64,000 nt of DNA. Source: Acidobacteriota bacterium. Its GTDB lineage: Bacteria > Acidobacteriota > G020349885. Position numbers and translations under genes: made by a program. The DNA lies in the NCBI GenBank assembly GCA_020349885.1, contig CP070701.1, positions 2,084,433 through 2,148,432 of the forward strand, given 5' to 3'. Under the pieces are notes generated by a model. It was not told the origin of the DNA. It saw nothing but the letters and a program-made list of their open reading frames with translations, and ran no database searches. The number at the start of each line of letters is the position of its first letter. Positions within the stretch are counted from its first letter, which is position 1. Shown in pieces: positions 89 through 47,322 of the stretch.

Positions 89-201
89 GCCAGGGGCCAG
101 CCTAACAGGGATTAGGGAATAGGGATTAGGGATTAAGAAAACAAGGATTAGAAAAAATTCCTTCTGCTAACCCCTAACGACTAATCCCTAACCCCTTCCT
201 C
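87..201. repeat. Inverted pair of heptamer arrays (GGGATTA type)
   Basis: Bases 108-135 are four tandem 7-mers of the GGGATTA/GGGAATA type, with three looser units of a GGCCAG type in the same phase before them (87-107). Bases 167-194 are four tandem 7-mers of the CTAAYCC type, which is the reverse complement of the left arm. The two arms are separated by about 30 AT-rich bases and could form an imperfect hairpin. It lies between a gene end and the selenoprotein promoter. Confidence 0.75.
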
Positions 202-210
202 CTGCTCCGA

Positions 211-239
211 TTGACAGCACTTCCCCGGCCCAATATCAT
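211..239 (+). promoter_or_regulatory. Sigma-70-type promoter of the selenoprotein gene
   Basis: TTGACA (211-216) and TATCAT (234-239) are separated by 17 bases. The expected transcript start is about 55 bases before the ATG at 302, and an AAGGAGG ribosome-binding site (291-297) lies 4 bases before that ATG. Both support a start upstream of the in-frame TGA. Confidence 0.75.
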
Positions 240-301
240 GCCGCGGTAACCGCCGGGTTTTCCGGCGCGATCGTAAGAACGCTACACCGAAAGGAGGCGG
301 C

Positions 302-787
302 ATGGCACAACACGAGACGAAGAAGCTCGACGCGGGAGACGTTTTTCCGGAGATTTCCCTCGACCTCGTAACCGGGGCGTCGCTGCGCCTCCCGCTGAAG
401 CAGTGGACGGTGTTCCTGGTGTACAGGGGGAACTGGTGACCCGTCTGCCGTCAGCAGTTGGCTGACTTCCAGAAGAATCTCGGCGGTTTCGAAAAGCTCG
501 GCGCCCGGGTCGTCGCGGCGTCGGTCGAGGGGCTGGACGAGGCGAAAAAGACGGTGACGGAGCAAGGGTTGAGTTTTCCCGTGGGATACGGGCTCGACGC
601 GCTGGAGGTCGCCGCCCGGTGCGGCGCCTTCTACGACGCGGAGCGGAAGTTCCTGCATTCGACCGGCTTCCTGCTCGGGCCGGACGGGAGCGTGCGCATC
701 GCCGCCTACAGCACGGGCCCCATCGGCCGCCTTACGCCCGCCGACTCGCTGAGACTGATCGAGTACTACCAGAAGCAGGACGCGTAA
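302..787 (+). CDS. Peroxiredoxin-like selenoprotein (AhpC/TSA fold, UxxC)
   Basis: This is a 161-residue thioredoxin-fold redoxin with an in-frame TGA (437-439) at codon 46. Reading through gives YRGNW-U-PVC. Cysteine homologues of this peroxiredoxin-like family carry the pattern YRGxWCPxC at this site, so the TGA sits exactly on the catalytic residue, with the resolving Cys at 49. Upstream residues (start MAQHETKKLD) and downstream residues (QQLADF, then an SVEG strand and a late FLLGPDGSVR strand) belong to one continuous domain. The start at 302 has a strong ribosome-binding site and a promoter; a start at 458, after the TGA, would cut off the active site. A bSECIS hairpin follows the TGA. 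Expected role: thiol-dependent reduction of peroxides or disulfides in the cytoplasm; the substrate is unknown. It needs SelA/B/C/D, which are not in the window. Confidence 0.9.
437..466 (+). promoter_or_regulatory. UGA(Sec) codon plus bSECIS stem-loop
   Basis: After the TGA (437-439) there are 10 spacer bases, then a perfect 6-bp stem: GTCAGC (450-455) and GCTGAC (461-466), around the loop AGTTG (456-460). The loop starts 17 bases past the TGA and has G at its second position. This matches the bacterial SECIS rule (a small apical loop with an early G, roughly 16-37 bases after the UGA) and resembles the spacing in E. coli fdhF. The element lies inside the coding sequence, as in other bacteria. 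Confidence 0.85.
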
Positions 788-936: not shown

Positions 937-3900
937 CTAGTCCACCTGAGCCAGGTCTTCGTCGAGGATCTTGTCGAGCGTCTCGACCAGGCGGTCGGCG
1001 TCCTGCTCGGAGAAGGGCATGGGCGGCCGGATCTTGATGACGTTGAAGAGGAGGCCCTCGACGGCGACGAGGATGCCGTGGTCCTTCAGCCGCTCGGTGA
1101 CGTACGTGGCCTCATCCTCGGCGGGCTCGAGCGTCTCCGGGTTCAGGACGAGCTCGATGCCGTGGTACAGGCCGCTCCCCCTCACGTCGCCGATGATGGA
1201 AAAATCCTTCTTCAGCTCCTCCAGGCCCTCGAGGAGCCTTTTCCCCACCCGCAGGGCGTGCTCCTGCAATTTTTCGTCCTCGAGGACGTCGAGCACCGCC
1301 AGCCCGACGGCGCACGAGACGGGGTTGCCGCCGGTGGTGCTGAAGAAGCCGGTCTTCGCGGCGAGCGAGGCCGCGAGCTCGGGCGTCGTCACCACCGCGC
1401 CGATCGGGTGGCCGTTCCCGATGGGTTTTCCCATGGTCACGACGTCGGGCACCACGCCGTTCTCCTCGAACCCCCAGAAGTGCGTCCCGAGGCGGCCGAA
1501 GCCGACCTGCACCTGGTCCGACACGAAGACGCCGCCCGCCTCGTGCACCGCGCGGTACACTTCCTCCATGTATCCGCGCGGGGGGAATATCAGGCCCGGG
1601 GAGCAGGGATGCGACTCGCTGAAGAACGCCGCGAGTTTTTTCCCCTTCGCCTGCAATTTCTTTATCGTCCCGGCCACGTCCGCCGCGTACTTCCTGCCGG
1701 CGTCGGGGTCGTCGCGGCGGTATTTCCCCCGGTACGTGTCCGGAGGAGGGACCAGGTGCACGTGCTCGGCCGCGCCGCCCTCCCGGCCGAAGTCGTCGAC
1801 CTCGGCGGGGCTGATGTCGGTGAGGGCGCACGTGAGGCCGTGGTAGACGCCCTCGTGCACGATGACGTCGGTGCCCCCGGTGTGCGCGCGCGCGAGGCGC
1901 AGCGCGAGCTCGTTCGCCTCGCTCCCCGAGCTCACGAACGTGCACCTCCGCAGCGGCTCGGGCATGGAGTGCGCCAGGCGCTCGGCGTAGCGCACGACGT
2001 GCCCGTGCAGGTAGCGCGTGTTGGTGTTCAGGACCGCCATCTGCCGCCGCGCCGCCCGCACCACGCGGGGGTGCGAGTGCCCGACGTGCGGCACGTTGTT
2101 GACGGCGTCGACGTAGGCGCGCCCCTCGTCGTCGTAGAGGAACTGCCCGTAGCCGCGCACGAAGTGGAGCGGCCTGCGGTAATTGGTGTAGAGGAATTCT
2201 CCTAGGGCGCGTTGGCGGCGGTCGCGCACCTCCTCCGTCGTCATAGCGCCGCCCGCGAGCTCCTCCTCAGGCAGGCCGGCGACGAGGTTCGGGTCGGGGC
2301 AGAAGCCGAGCCACACGTCGCGCTCGCCCGGGCGGGCCGCATGGGGAAAATTTCCTTTGCGGCCCATCAGGTCGCTCACGACCTGGAAGTGAAGGTGCGG
2401 GGGGCGGTCGCCGTTCTCGGAAGAAGCGCCGACGCGGCCCAGCGCGTCGCCCCTGCGGACGCGGTCGCCCTCGCGCCGTTCCCTGAGGGAGTCGCGGCTC
2501 AGGTTCGAGTACAGCGTGAAGAACGTCGCCGAGTCCTTCCCCGTCGAGTGCTCGAGGATGAGCGTCGGGCCGCCGCCCGCGTCGTCCGCGTTGTCGCCGA
2601 GGCTGTGGACGGTTCCGTCGAGCGGCGCGAGGACAGAGGAACCCGCTTCGAGGAAGAGGTCGAGCCCCAGGTGGACGGTGCGGTGCTCGGGCAGCTCGTC
2701 GGCGGGGAGCGGGGGAGATTTCCCGGTGTGGAGGAGCCGGGCCTCGTCGTAGCGGCCTATGCCGACCGCGGCGCCCGCCTCCTTCATCCTCTCGGCGAGC
2801 AGGCGCGTGAGCTCCTCGCAGCCCATGTTCGCCGGGTCGCCGGGAAGGTCGGGGCTGCCGACGCTCAGGTCGAGGACGACGCGGGAGGAGTTCCGGACGT
2901 CCGGCTCCGTCAGCGGGCCGATGCGGTCGCGCTCTTTTTCGAGCCACCGGACGACGCGCTGGGTTTTCGCGCAGGGAGGCAGGCCGCACGCCTCGCGGAG
3001 GACGCCGGTCGCGAGCTCCGGGCGGACCTCCACAAGCTTCTCCAGGGTTTCCCAGCCGGGCTCCTCGGCGAGGTAGTTGTACTCGTTCGCCGGGTTCAGC
3101 CTCCTGCGGAAGGACGCGAGCGAGACCTCCGTGCAAATCCGCATGCAGATGAGGTCGAAGAGGACGTCCGCCTCCTGCTCCGTCAGGGGGTACGCCTCGT
3201 GGTAGCCCCGCACGACGTGGGCCGCCGCCGCGAGGGGCTCCTCCTTTTCGAGCGGCACGTAGCTCGCTGCGATCGCGGGCTCGCACACCGTGTAGGTGTG
3301 CACCATGTCGCCGAAGTCGACGAGCCCGGAAACCTCGAGCTCGCCCTCCGGCGTCAGCGACACGACCGTGTTCATGTCGTTCGCGTCGTTGTGGATGACG
3401 GCGGTGCGCAGGCCCCGAAGGACGGGGGCCGTGCACCTTTCGAACCGCTCGAGAAACGTCTCCAGGATCGCCCGCCGCGAAGGGGAGTGCTCTTTGAGCT
3501 CTTCCCGGATGATGGCGGGGGAGTTGTCGACGTACCACTCGTTGTCCCGGTGCATCGCGGGGTGGGAGAATCCCTCGAGCGCCCGGTCGATGTTTCCGAC
3601 GAACCGGCCCAGGCCCCGGAGCAGGCCCGGGCTGTGGGGCTCCACCTCGCCCAGGATTTTTCCCGGAAGGTAGGTCAGCAGCCGCGCGGGACGCCTGGCC
3701 CCGTCGCCGTCCCGGATGAACGCCAGCCTTTCCCCGCCCGTCGTCGGCTGGACGCGCGGCCAGCTCACCGAGGGGATGCGCTCGGCGAGTCTCTCCTGGA
3801 CCTGGTCCTCGAAGTCCAGTCCGTCCAGGTTCTCTTTCTCCGGATGGATCTTCAGCACGAACTCGCGCCCCTCGTCGTCCCGGACGTGGAAGTTATAGTT

Positions 3901-4011
3901 GTGCTCGCCGGTCAGCGGGCGCGCGCGGACCGGGAAGCCGTAGAGCTCCCGGACCACTTCCTCCGCCCTCTCGACGGAGATGCCGGAAAAAACTTCACTA
4001 ACGAGGTACAT
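937..4011 (-). CDS. Kinase (APH) - M23 peptidase - class III aminotransferase fusion
   Basis: A 1024-residue three-domain protein. Residues about 10-340 are an aminoglycoside-phosphotransferase/hydroxylysine-kinase-like domain (catalytic HNDANDMN at 207-214, DFGD at 232-235). Residues about 440-560 are an M23/LytM-like domain with H447, D451 and the HLH motif at 539-541. Residues about 590-1020 are a class III PLP aminotransferase (SSGSEAN near 695-700, D832, PLP lysine K862 in TMGKPIGNG). In vertebrates the kinase (HYKK) and phospho-lyase (PHYKPL/ETNPPL) that break down hydroxylysine or phosphoethanolamine are separate homologous proteins. The fusion suggests a kinase feeding a phospho-lyase, but the substrate is unknown. 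The M23 metal site looks intact although no signal peptide is visible, so its peptidase role is doubtful. The start at 4011 has no clear ribosome-binding site. Confidence 0.85.
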   Translation of the reverse strand: MYLVSEVFSGISVERAEEVVRELYGFPVRARPLTGEHNYNFHVRDDEGREFVLKIHPEKENLDGLDFEDQVQERLAERIPSVSWPRVQPTTGGERLAFIRDGDGARRPARLLTYLPGKILGEVEPHSPGLLRGLGRFVGNIDRALEGFSHPAMHRDNEWYVDNSPAIIREELKEHSPSRRAILETFLERFERCTAPVLRGLRTAVIHNDANDMNTVVSLTPEGELEVSGLVDFGDMVHTYTVCEPAIAASYVPLEKEEPLAAAAHVVRGYHEAYPLTEQEADVLFDLICMRICTEVSLASFRRRLNPANEYNYLAEEPGWETLEKLVEVRPELATGVLREACGLPPCAKTQRVVRWLEKERDRIGPLTEPDVRNSSRVVLDLSVGSPDLPGDPANMGCEELTRLLAERMKEAGAAVGIGRYDEARLLHTGKSPPLPADELPEHRTVHLGLDLFLEAGSSVLAPLDGTVHSLGDNADDAGGGPTLILEHSTGKDSATFFTLYSNLSRDSLRERREGDRVRRGDALGRVGASSENGDRPPHLHFQVVSDLMGRKGNFPHAARPGERDVWLGFCPDPNLVAGLPEEELAGGAMTTEEVRDRRQRALGEFLYTNYRRPLHFVRGYGQFLYDDEGRAYVDAVNNVPHVGHSHPRVVRAARRQMAVLNTNTRYLHGHVVRYAERLAHSMPEPLRRCTFVSSGSEANELALRLARAHTGGTDVIVHEGVYHGLTCALTDISPAEVDDFGREGGAAEHVHLVPPPDTYRGKYRRDDPDAGRKYAADVAGTIKKLQAKGKKLAAFFSESHPCSPGLIFPPRGYMEEVYRAVHEAGGVFVSDQVQVGFGRLGTHFWGFEENGVVPDVVTMGKPIGNGHPIGAVVTTPELAASLAAKTGFFSTTGGNPVSCAVGLAVLDVLEDEKLQEHALRVGKRLLEGLEELKKDFSIIGDVRGSGLYHGIELVLNPETLEPAEDEATYVTERLKDHGILVAVEGLLFNVIKIRPPMPFSEQDADRLVETLDKILDEDLAQVD

Positions 4012-5061: not shown

Positions 5062-7370
5062 GGCGAGCCTCCGTAGGTCGACCGGTAGTGCCCGTAGGAG
5101 TTGAGGACGCGTTTGACGTAGTTGCGCGTCTGGAGATAGGGAATGCGCGCCAGGAATTCCGTCGGGTCGTCGCTTCGAAGGCTATCGCGCCACTCCTCGA
5201 CGCGGTGCTCGCCCGCGTTGTAGGCCGCGACGGCATGGGAAAAATTCCCGTCGAACATCTCCAGAAGGTCGGCCAGGTAGCGCGAGCCGAGGCGGATGGC
5301 CGTCTGCGGATCGTAGAGCGCGTCCTCGTTCTCGAACGTGATGTCCAGGAGGGCGGCGTAGTGCCGCGCCGTCGAGGGAATGAACTGCATAAGGCCCCGC
5401 GCCGCGGCCCAGGACTTGGCGCGGGGATCGAAGCGGCTCTCCTCGCGCATCACGGCGGCGACCAGGTAGGGGTCGACGCCGTCGCGGCACGCGATGCTCC
5501 AGAGAAATTCCCAGTAGGGAAGGGGATAGAGGGCGCGGCGGAGCAAGAGGTCGGCCCGCACCTCGGGTGGTTCACCGGAGGCTGTGCGCCCGGCCAGCCG
5601 CACCAGGAGGCGGTAATCGCCGGCCTCGCGGGCGCAGAGCGCCGCGTCGCGCAGGTCGGCGAGTGAGATCGGCCTGCCCGCGCGGAGATGGTGCCGCAGT
5701 TCGTGCGCGCCCCATTCGCTCAGTCCGAGGGCCGTCAAGTAGCGCGCCCGCCCCAGGGTGCCGTCGAGCGATATTTCGGAAAGGGCGGGCGTTTCCTCCG
5801 CGCCGGGCGGGGAGCGCGGCGCTTCGCGCAGCGAGCGCGCCAGCGCGAACGACTCGCTTCCTTTTTCGTCGCCGCCCGCCCAGAGGCAGCCGCTTTCCCG
5901 GACGATGAAATCAGAGAAGTATCCGCTCGGGTTCGCGTCGAGGACGCGCACGTACCGCCGCCGAGCCTCGTCCTCGTCGCCGTCCCGCTCGGCCAGGCGC
6001 CCGAGCCGGAAGGCGGCTTCCTCCTTGTAGGATGCGAGAGGAGTGCGCCGGAGCACCTCCTCGAACAGCGCGGAGGCGTTCTCACCGTTTTCCTCGCCCG
6101 AGTCTTCGGAGAAGGAAAGCTCGACGCCGCGCTCGAACATCAGGCGCTCCCAGAGGCGGTTTTCGCCGCCAGGCCGAATTTCCTTGAGCGCCCGCAGCGC
6201 CTTCTCCTCTTCACCCGCCCTGCGGTGAAGGGCGACCAGCTTGGCGTGGAGGCTGTCGCGCTTGCTGCTCCGGGGGAAGCGTTTGAGTGCTTCCGACAGG
6301 GAGCGAACGGCCTCCGGGAAAAGACCTTCTTGCTCCAAGATAAGAGCTTCCTGGTAGGCGGCGCGTGCGGCCCACTCCTTGGACGCCGCGAGCTCCTCGA
6401 AGACGGCGCGCGCTTCCGGGAAGCGCTTTTGCTGGACGAGCGCCTGCCCGCGCAGGAAGAGCGCTTCGCTCCGGTTGCGCGAGCGCGGATATTCTTCCAC
6501 GAAGGCGGCGAAACGGTTCTCGGCTTCTTCAAACTCCCGGTTGTTGTAAAACACCTTGGCGAGAAACCAGGCGAGCTCTTCAGGGCGCGCCTTTTTCGCT
6601 CCGGGAAAACGCTCCACGAATTCCCTCGCGGCCCGAAGCGCCCAGTCGTCCGAGTCACGCTCGCGCAGGAAGCGGAGGAGGCGCGAGGCCGCCTCCTTGT
6701 GCGAATCCCGCGCAACGCGATGGTGCAGAATCCCGTAGCCGATCTCGCGCCGGACGGCTTTCGAAAGCGAGCGGAAGCGCAGGAGGCGCTCCAGCGAGTC
6801 GATGGATTTTTTCTTGCGCTGGCGGTCCGCCCCGGGCGGAAGGTCTTCCTCCGGGGCCGTAAGGCGGCGCGCGAGGAGAAGTGTCGCCTCGTTGCGGAAA
6901 AGCCCGCGCGGATTCTTTTCAAGATACTCGAAGACGGCGCGCTCGAGCGCCCTCGCCCGGGTCTTGGGCTCGGCGCGTCCGAGCTCGTCGCGAACCAGGA
7001 GGGCGCGATAGCGCGCATGGGGGGCGAGCGGGTCGTCCGCGGGATACGCTTCATAGAGCGAGAGCGCTTCTTCGAGGCGGCCCGCCCTCTCGAGGTGTGC
7101 GGCCTCGGCGAGCGGAAGGCGGTTTGCGGAGAAGAGGGCCGGGTTCGCTTCCCGAAGCCCCGCGAGCGCCCGCGCCGCTTCGGTCCCCTCCATGGCCGCC
7201 GCCTCCAGGAGCGTTTCCCGTGCGCGTTCGGCCCAGGAGGAAGAATCTTCCGCCGCTTCCGCAGGCCCGGGTGCGTCTTCCGAACCGGGGCTCGCCGAGA
7301 CGATCAGGGTGCAGGCCATGGCGGCGAACGCACCCGTGCGAACACACCGAAGCATTCGTGCGATGGGCAT
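5049..7370 (-). CDS. Soluble lytic murein transglycosylase with TPR-like repeats
   Basis: 773 residues from the ATG at 7370. A signal sequence (MPIARMLRCVRTG then a hydrophobic stretch to VSASPGSE) points to the periplasm. Residues about 40-600 are TPR-like helical repeats that form the Slt70-type superhelix. The C-terminal SLT domain shows the catalytic Glu in REESRFDP, then GLMQFIPSTA and AYNAG. The enzyme cleaves the MurNAc-GlcNAc bond and forms 1,6-anhydro ends. A longer frame begins at 7415, but a TATAAC box at 7378-7383 would place transcription start almost on the 7370 ATG, so 7370 is preferred. It is the first gene of an overlapping pair with the MurU-like gene, consistent with release and reuse of wall sugars. 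Confidence 0.9.
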   Translation of the reverse strand: MPIARMLRCVRTGAFAAMACTLIVSASPGSEDAPGPAEAAEDSSSWAERARETLLEAAAMEGTEAARALAGLREANPALFSANRLPLAEAAHLERAGRLEEALSLYEAYPADDPLAPHARYRALLVRDELGRAEPKTRARALERAVFEYLEKNPRGLFRNEATLLLARRLTAPEEDLPPGADRQRKKKSIDSLERLLRFRSLSKAVRREIGYGILHHRVARDSHKEAASRLLRFLRERDSDDWALRAAREFVERFPGAKKARPEELAWFLAKVFYNNREFEEAENRFAAFVEEYPRSRNRSEALFLRGQALVQQKRFPEARAVFEELAASKEWAARAAYQEALILEQEGLFPEAVRSLSEALKRFPRSSKRDSLHAKLVALHRRAGEEEKALRALKEIRPGGENRLWERLMFERGVELSFSEDSGEENGENASALFEEVLRRTPLASYKEEAAFRLGRLAERDGDEDEARRRYVRVLDANPSGYFSDFIVRESGCLWAGGDEKGSESFALARSLREAPRSPPGAEETPALSEISLDGTLGRARYLTALGLSEWGAHELRHHLRAGRPISLADLRDAALCAREAGDYRLLVRLAGRTASGEPPEVRADLLLRRALYPLPYWEFLWSIACRDGVDPYLVAAVMREESRFDPRAKSWAAARGLMQFIPSTARHYAALLDITFENEDALYDPQTAIRLGSRYLADLLEMFDGNFSHAVAAYNAGEHRVEEWRDSLRSDDPTEFLARIPYLQTRNYVKRVLNSYGHYRSTYGGSPCGP

Positions 7371-45673: not shown

Positions 45674-46321
45674 ATGCGTACCGGGTTCAATACGGAAATC
45701 AAGCGAGGCTCCACGCTCTACCACGTCCAGACCGAGGACAAGGGGGACGTCAACCCCCTGATTGAGAGCCTCGTCTACGTGGGAGGGCAGGTCCTCGATT
45801 CCGTGCGCTCTTCCTACGACCAGGCGCTGAAGGGCGAGGAAATCGACGCGCTCCTGGAGAAGCAGCACCAGGACATCCTGAAAAAAATTCGAAGCGGCGC
45901 CTACGAGGCCGCCATCTCGAGCGTCGCGGGCCGGGATAGCACCCAGTCGCTTCGGGCCCAGCGCGGACTCGACGACCTCATCATCGACTACCTGTCCAAA
46001 GAAAAACAGAAGGCGCACCTTGAGCTCAGCATGAACCACGGCGCGGAGTTCGTCTACGGACGCGAAACCTCCGTCGAGATTACCGCCTGCAACGATCGCA
46101 CGCGCAAGCCCATGCCCGGCGTTTCGGTCCTCGTCAAACTCATCAGCACGGCAGCACCTCCCACGACGCTCTTTGAGGGCAAGACCGACGCCGAGGGGCG
46201 GGCGACGGCCACGGTGACCATTCCCGTGCTCGAGGGCGGCAACGCCGCCGTCATCCTCAAGGGCACGTCCGAGCTCGGAAGCGACGAATTGAAACAATTC
46301 GTCAAGCGCGTCAAGCCATGA
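45674..46321 (+). CDS. Uncharacterised protein preceding thiS
   Basis: 215 residues, no signal peptide. The N-terminus (FNTEIKRGSTLYHVQTEDKG with PLIESLVYVGGQVLDSVRSS) is a conserved domain I have seen in deltaproteobacteria-like and acidobacterial genomes without a known function. The middle is helical (EEIDALLEKQHQDILKKI). The C-terminal 95 residues look like a beta-sandwich (YGRETSVEITACNDRTRKPM, GKTDAEGRATATVTIPVLEG), similar to carboxypeptidase-regulatory or Big-type domains. Its stop overlaps thiS (ATGA), so it is co-translated with thiamine genes; no direct link is known. Confidence 0.7.
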   Translation: MRTGFNTEIKRGSTLYHVQTEDKGDVNPLIESLVYVGGQVLDSVRSSYDQALKGEEIDALLEKQHQDILKKIRSGAYEAAISSVAGRDSTQSLRAQRGLDDLIIDYLSKEKQKAHLELSMNHGAEFVYGRETSVEITACNDRTRKPMPGVSVLVKLISTAAPPTTLFEGKTDAEGRATATVTIPVLEGGNAAVILKGTSELGSDELKQFVKRVKP

Positions 46322-46521
46322 CCCTCATGGTGAACGGCGAGCGCTTCGACGCGGAGGGGGACGGCTTCTGCGTCGCGGAGCTTCTCGAGGCATTGGAGCT
46401 TTCCCGCGAGCGCGTGGCCGTGGAAGTGAACCGGGAGCTTGTGCGCCGCTCGGAGTTCAGCGAAACGGCCCTCCACGAGGGCGACAAGGTGGAAGTCGTT
46501 CGCTTCGTGGGAGGGGGATGA
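46318..46521 (+). CDS. thiS: Sulfur carrier protein ThiS
   Basis: 67 residues with a ubiquitin-like beta-grasp pattern: MVNGERF, AELLEALEL, VAVEVNRELVRRSEF, GDKVEVVRFVGGG. The C-terminal Gly-Gly is the site of thiocarboxylate formation by ThiF and ThiI/IscS. It donates sulfur to ThiG. thiF is absent here. Translationally coupled to the preceding gene. Confidence 0.92.
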   Translation: MTLMVNGERFDAEGDGFCVAELLEALELSRERVAVEVNRELVRRSEFSETALHEGDKVEVVRFVGGG

Positions 46522-46548
46522 GGGGCCGGAAAGGAAATTGGTAGAACT

Positions 46549-47322
46549 GTGAAAGGCCCCTTAAAAATCGGAGGGCGCACGTTCCGGTCGCGCCTCATCC
46601 TCGGCACCGGCAAGTACGAAAACTTCCGCATCATGCAGGAAGCACACGAGGCGTCGGGAACCGAGCTCGTGACGGTCGCCGTGCGGCGCATCGACCTGGC
46701 CGACCGGGGGAAGGAATCCATCTGGAGCTACATCGACACGAAAAAAATCTCTCTCCTTCCCAACACCGCCGGCTGCTATACCGTCGACGAGGCCATCCGC
46801 ACGGCTCGCATGGCGCGCGAGTTGTGCGAAACCGATTTCATCAAGCTCGAGGTCATCGGCGACGAGAAGACCCTTCTCCCCGACACCGCGGGGCTGCTGG
46901 AAGCGACGCGCGTTCTGGTCAAGGACAAATTCGTGGTCATGCCCTACACGAACGACGACCCCATCGTGGCCAAGAAACTGGAGGAGGCAGGCGCCTCGTG
47001 CGTGATGCCGCTCGCCGCCCCCATCGGCTCGGGGATGGGCGTCCAGAACCGCCTTCACCTGGGCTTCCTCTTGGAGCAGGCGGGCGTTCCCGTCATTGTG
47101 GACGCGGGCGTGGGCACGGCCTCTGACGCCGCGATCGCCATGGAGCTGGGCTCGGACGGCGTGCTCATGAACACGGCCGTCGCGTGCGCGAAGGATCCCC
47201 TCAAGATGGCGTGCGCCATGAAGCTCGCCGTCGAGTCGGGCCGCCTTGCGTACGAATCAGGAAGAATCCCCAGGAAACGCTACGCCTCGGCCTCAAGCCC
47301 CGAAACGGGACTCATCGAGTAA
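46549..47322 (+). CDS. thiG: Thiazole synthase ThiG
   Basis: 257 residues from a [21 protein letters not shown] opens the TIM barrel; [16 protein letters not shown] has the Schiff-base Lys; [10 protein letters not shown] and [17 protein letters not shown] are phosphate-loop motifs. It makes the thiazole phosphate of thiamine from DXP, dehydroglycine and ThiS-thiocarboxylate. The end, [11 protein letters not shown], is the usual ThiG terminus. A second, out-of-place copy of this end follows the next gene (48792-48839). Confidence 0.97.

Follow-up and report, generated by a model that had tools for sequence, protein, structure and literature searches.

A peroxiredoxin (Prx)-like selenoprotein is almost certainly encoded at positions 302-787 of the window, the 64,000-nucleotide stretch of Acidobacteriota DNA that we analyzed. 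The product, of 161 residues, is a predicted thiol:disulfide oxidoreductase of family PF00578 with a UxxC motif, in which a hairpin would direct selenocysteine (Sec) into residue 46. By computation we find an open frame, a conserved Sec/Cys column, a covarying hairpin, a full set of Sec machinery and a predicted fold. The locus had originally been predicted to be a selenoprotein from its sequence, and this reading is now supported by the Sec machinery of the genome, by homologues that align through the TGA, by a difference in the hairpin between Sec and Cys forms, and by covariation in its stem. The coordinates of the features are given in Table 1.

Table 1. Features of the redoxin locus, in window coordinates.
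Feature	Position	Strand	Evidence
Sigma-70-type promoter-like site, TTGACA-17-TATCAT	211-239	+	consensus match alone
Shine-Dalgarno AAGGAGG, 4 nt 5' of the ATG	291-297	+	sequence
Prx-like redoxin selenoprotein gene, 161 aa, TAA stop	302-787	+	frame, PF00578 (E=4e-16), homologues
TGA read as selenocysteine, UPVC redox motif (U46...C49)	437-439	+	TGA at this codon in 12 homologues, many others with TGC/TGT
bSECIS hairpin, stem 450-455/461-466, loop AGTTG 456-460	450-466	+	sequence, folding, Sec-versus-Cys contrast, covariation, published model

One frame interrupted by a single TGA

Translation of the forward strand recovers the frame that the original prediction described, running from the ATG at 302-304 to the TAA at 785-787 and broken only by the TGA of codon 46. 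With Sec at that codon, the product reads MAQHETKK...YRGNWUPVCRQQLADF...QKQDA, followed by the stop. The strong ribosome-binding site claimed for the gene is borne out by the AAGGAGG that precedes the ATG, and the putative promoter matches the consensus at 11 of 12 positions (0.1 expected from shuffles). GC content by codon position is gene-like both 5' (0.62/0.38/0.84) and 3' (0.68/0.45/0.89) of the TGA.

Standard gene callers had been expected to start at 458 and lose the active site. Consistent with this, a six-frame ORF list made with standard stops contains on the forward strand just 458-787 (109 aa), and also lists an antisense ORF at 236-835. Only 109 residues of the redoxin are thereby left, the active site is lost, and misannotation is easy. 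That one of these two ORFs is the real gene, with the 5' part of the longer frame arising by chance, is what the output of a standard ORF finder would favor. We consider this extremely unlikely in view of homologues whose alignments cover residues 1-159 and take in YRGxW and the first beta strands, a strong ribosome-binding site and a promoter-like site upstream of 302, and a third-position GC of 0.84 in 302-436.

Imperfect 14-nt tandem repeats of the AGGGATTAGGGAATA type lie on either side of the redoxin gene, at window positions 107-149 and 889-931, and an inverted copy is found at 167-203. The sequence AGGGATTAGGG is present twice (0 expected). At 937-4011, the reverse strand encodes a protein of 1024 aa that fuses a phosphotransferase (APH) to an M23 peptidase-like domain and a class-III aminotransferase.

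Homologues carry Sec or Cys at codon 46

Within the phylum, 12 homologous loci from separate genomes have a TGA at the position of codon 46. The best relatives, L024 and L025, are 40% identical to the redoxin over the full length and each contain one TGA at this position; ten more distant loci have it as well. Alignment of Cys homologues across codon 46 had been proposed as a check, and these align through the TGA, so that the column holds either Sec or Cys. The Cys homologues, with TGC or TGT, are 37-46% identical over 150-160 residues (Ktedonobacter 46%; Deinococcus, Mycobacterium, Bradyrhizobium and others 37-45%). The motif YRGxWCPxC is invariant in fifteen of them (38-46% identity), and an alignment of 16 sequences has Y41, R42, G43, W45, C/U46, P47 and C49 as invariant positions. 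Relatives were not found when contigs were searched with the redoxin protein as the single query, and a second, alignment-based contig search used a pattern with Cys at 46 and was hence blind to Sec forms. No relatives of the protein were found among phage records.

Most homologues are one substitution away from TGA at codon 46, which leaves room for a pseudogene or a sequencing error, that is, a nonsense mutation or a wrong base in a Cys redoxin gene. We regard this as very unlikely. The TGA falls exactly at the single codon expected for Sec and is common to the 12 loci, and sequencing error is improbable because independent genomes share it. Moreover, the frame is otherwise intact, it is preceded by a promoter-like site and a ribosome-binding site, and its coding bias continues beyond the TGA. 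The hairpin is kept with compensating changes, and the Sec machinery of the genome is complete.

A hairpin with bSECIS geometry follows the TGA

The published model of the bacterial SECIS element (bSECIS) has a loop of 3-9 nt with a G in its first two positions, a stem of 4-16 bp, a distance of 16-37 nt from the UGA and an MFE of -7.5 or lower. A 6-bp stem with loop AGTTG, starting 10 bases after the TGA, had been noticed from the sequence. We confirm this hairpin, whose stem pairs GTCAGC with GCTGAC and whose loop begins 16 nt from the TGA, and its geometry agrees with the model in loop, stem length and spacing. The MFE, from -7.9 for the isolated stem-loop to -12.2, is also within the limit. 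Rfam gave no match in the window, a result of low weight given that bacterial SECIS elements are highly variable.

Folding z-scores of the hairpin against shuffled sequences ranged from -1.5 to 0, and the shuffles were often equally stable, so that energy does not set the hairpin apart. Among the 1298 TGAs on both strands of the window, the loosest bSECIS geometry with a 6-bp Watson-Crick hairpin occurs at 65, and a stricter form, which asks for an AG[G/T]-type loop of 4-6 nt at a spacing of 16-22, at 3, the redoxin TGA among them. Taken alone, the hairpin is modest evidence for a selenoprotein. The signal exceeds chance because homology extends through the TGA, the stem covaries, and the hairpin differs between Sec and Cys homologues.

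When comparing Sec to Cys homologues, a stem-loop with a dG of -7.5 kcal/mol or lower was present in 10/13 Sec forms (window included) and in 11/90 Cys forms (TGC/TGT); the 13 Sec homologues are mutually related, and the former figure therefore does not represent thirteen independent cases. The stem-loops of the other three Sec homologues have energies of -5.2 to -5.8 kcal/mol. When the window sequence is aligned without gaps to L024, L025 and L043, five of the six stem pairs are altered on both sides. The covariation score for these four sequences, of which L043 is a distant paralogue (25%), was 0.917, compared with 0.056-0.194 when the partners were slid, and was reached in 2 of 500 shuffles. 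At codon 51, for example, L024 has CTG for CAG and, opposite, GCA for GCT, a synonymous change by which the pairing is preserved.

The genome encodes the Sec machinery and uses TGA as a stop elsewhere

The source genome is a single contig of 2.4 Mb and is 95% complete. A search for selA, selB, selC and selD had been suggested alongside the original prediction, and all four are present: SelA scores 564 bits, SelB 318/349 bits (over the cut-off), SelD 362 bits, and tRNA-Sec, with anticodon TCA (UCA), 68 bits. In the search of relatives, SelA was over the cut-off in 15 of 20 genomes, the source genome counted.

The SelD gene (L020, 1480-2450, forward strand) itself has an in-frame TGA at a known Sec site, in the motif GUASK, and is a selenoprotein candidate. 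A formate dehydrogenase-like gene (L056, 1501-2229, reverse strand) has an in-frame TGA in the context ...NCARTUHAP and is a candidate Sec enzyme. GUASK and TUHAP match the UxxK and UHxP Sec motifs given in PMC13188914. With the redoxin, this makes at least three genes in which the genome appears to read UGA as Sec.

In-frame TGA in three or more genes would also be expected if TGA had been reassigned throughout the genome to a standard amino acid (Trp, Gly or Cys, as in codes 4, 25 or 10). We attach a negligible probability to such a reassignment. TGA terminates 17 of the 41 long ORFs in the window, all three in-frame TGAs stand at textbook Sec sites, and the genome encodes a tRNA-Sec with a TCA anticodon. 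TGA also ends thiS immediately ahead of thiG, and since it serves as an ordinary stop at such sites, there is no code change.

Besides the redoxin gene, a search of the window for coding-like TGA read-throughs returned only the stop of thiS, at 46519, and, at 5664, a weak antisense candidate. The thiS and thiG genes (46318-47319, forward strand) share a frame with this one TGA between them and thus look like a read-through; we rejected this candidate, the TGA being a genuine stop that follows the GlyGly end of ThiS and precedes ThiG. The TGA at 5664 (forward strand) lies in a long antisense-type frame with coding-like GC opposite a transglycosylase gene, and this frame most likely just mirrors the opposite strand.

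Fold and active site

The redoxin protein matches PF00578 with 59.5 bits (cut-off 26) and has the UxxC active-site motif U46-P-V-C49. An AlphaFold model, built with Cys at 46, has a mean pLDDT of 88.9 and a peroxiredoxin fold. Its structural matches include Bcp4 (Z 22.0, rmsd 1.8 over 151), Prx IV (Z 21.1, rmsd 1.9 over 155) and AhpE (Z 20). In an alignment to a Sulfolobus Prx (6q5v), the Thr of PxxxTxxC is matched by U46, the peroxidatic Cys of this motif by C49, and the conserved Arg by Ser120; we take the Thr, Cys and Arg to have these roles in Prx enzymes. The canonical PxxxT/SxxC motif is absent from the redoxin, which has RGNWUPVC there, and so is the conserved catalytic Arg.

The sequence and the model together point to a Prx fold that lacks two of the three conserved Prx catalytic residues and has a thioredoxin-like UxxC pair. 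Because U occupies the Thr position of TxxC and the catalytic Arg is absent, we place the protein with the UxxC Prx-like selenoproteins and not with the canonical peroxiredoxins. The original prediction had assigned codon 46 to the catalytic Cys; this is correct within the YRGxWCPxC family but not by the standard of peroxiredoxins, whose peroxidatic Cys aligns with Cys49.

The protein might instead be a true peroxidase that follows the Prx mechanism, with Cys49 or Sec46 as the peroxidatic residue, and it would be a selenoprotein in that case too. The close structural matches (Z 22 for Bcp4, 21 for Prx IV) and the position of Cys49 are in agreement with this, and Sec reacts well with peroxides. 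With RGNWUPVC in place of PxxxTxxC and Ser120 in place of the Arg, two of the three conserved catalytic residues are gone, and we give a true peroxidase an appreciable, though lesser, chance.

For the thiol:disulfide oxidoreductase that we favor, we infer Sec insertion itself, the substrate and a redox cycle between U46 and C49 as follows. SelB with Sec-tRNA(Sec) would bind the hairpin just 3' of the UGA and direct Sec into residue 46, and translation would run on to the TAA. Sec46, with which the first active-site helix begins, would act as the nucleophile on a disulfide or peroxide, and Cys49 would resolve the product as a selenenylsulfide. A cycle of Sec46 attack, Cys49 resolution and reduction by thioredoxin or other cellular thiols is likely. 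The enzymatic activity of the Prx-like UxxC family is itself a prediction, "predicted with high confidence" (PMC13188914).

Relation to known families

The redoxin falls within a family of selenoproteins that has been on record since the mid-2000s, the Prx-like thiol:disulfide oxidoreductases with UxxC (reference sequence WP_010940744.1; PMC1088965, PMC1794560, PMC2398784, PMC13188914), and all of the family's features that could be tested here were found. Members have been reported in Geobacter, Desulfotalea and Syntrophus (PMC1794560), Prx-like 1 accounted for 225 sequences in the GOS survey (PMC2398784), and a 2026 review lists the Prx-like UxxC selenoprotein as a high-confidence family (PMC13188914). 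Like the Geobacter and GOS Prx-like 1 proteins, the window member has PF00578, UxxC with Sec at the thioredoxin-like first position, a bSECIS immediately 3', and Cys homologues as counterparts; this placement was made by PF00578 and motif. It differs in being short (161 aa), and the Cys redoxins nearest to it are those of Chloroflexota, Actinomycetota, Bradyrhizobium and Deinococcus.

The Sec peroxiredoxins share the fold, and the nearest NCBIfam profile, PrxU (NF040737), matches weakly (E=8e-5, 22 bits against a cut-off of 270). However, their Sec occupies the second motif position (TxxU), whereas that of the window protein lies three residues earlier. The Cys redoxins annotated as "peroxiredoxin family protein" in Ktedonobacter, Mycobacterium, Bradyrhizobium and Deinococcus share the identity and the YRGxWCPxC motif described above, but have TGC or TGT for TGA and usually lack the hairpin.

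The subfamily of redoxins of about 160 residues is otherwise Cys-containing in Actinomycetota, Bradyrhizobium, Deinococcus and Chloroflexota. Its Sec form (window, L024 and L025) could possibly constitute an undescribed subfamily of Prx-like selenoproteins, although we are doubtful of this. Our results add a well-supported selenoprotein, together with related Cys counterparts, for a genome of a sparsely sampled class. They alter no principle, and the Sec/Cys subfamily pair is a handy case for Sec-Cys exchange and the loss of bSECIS.
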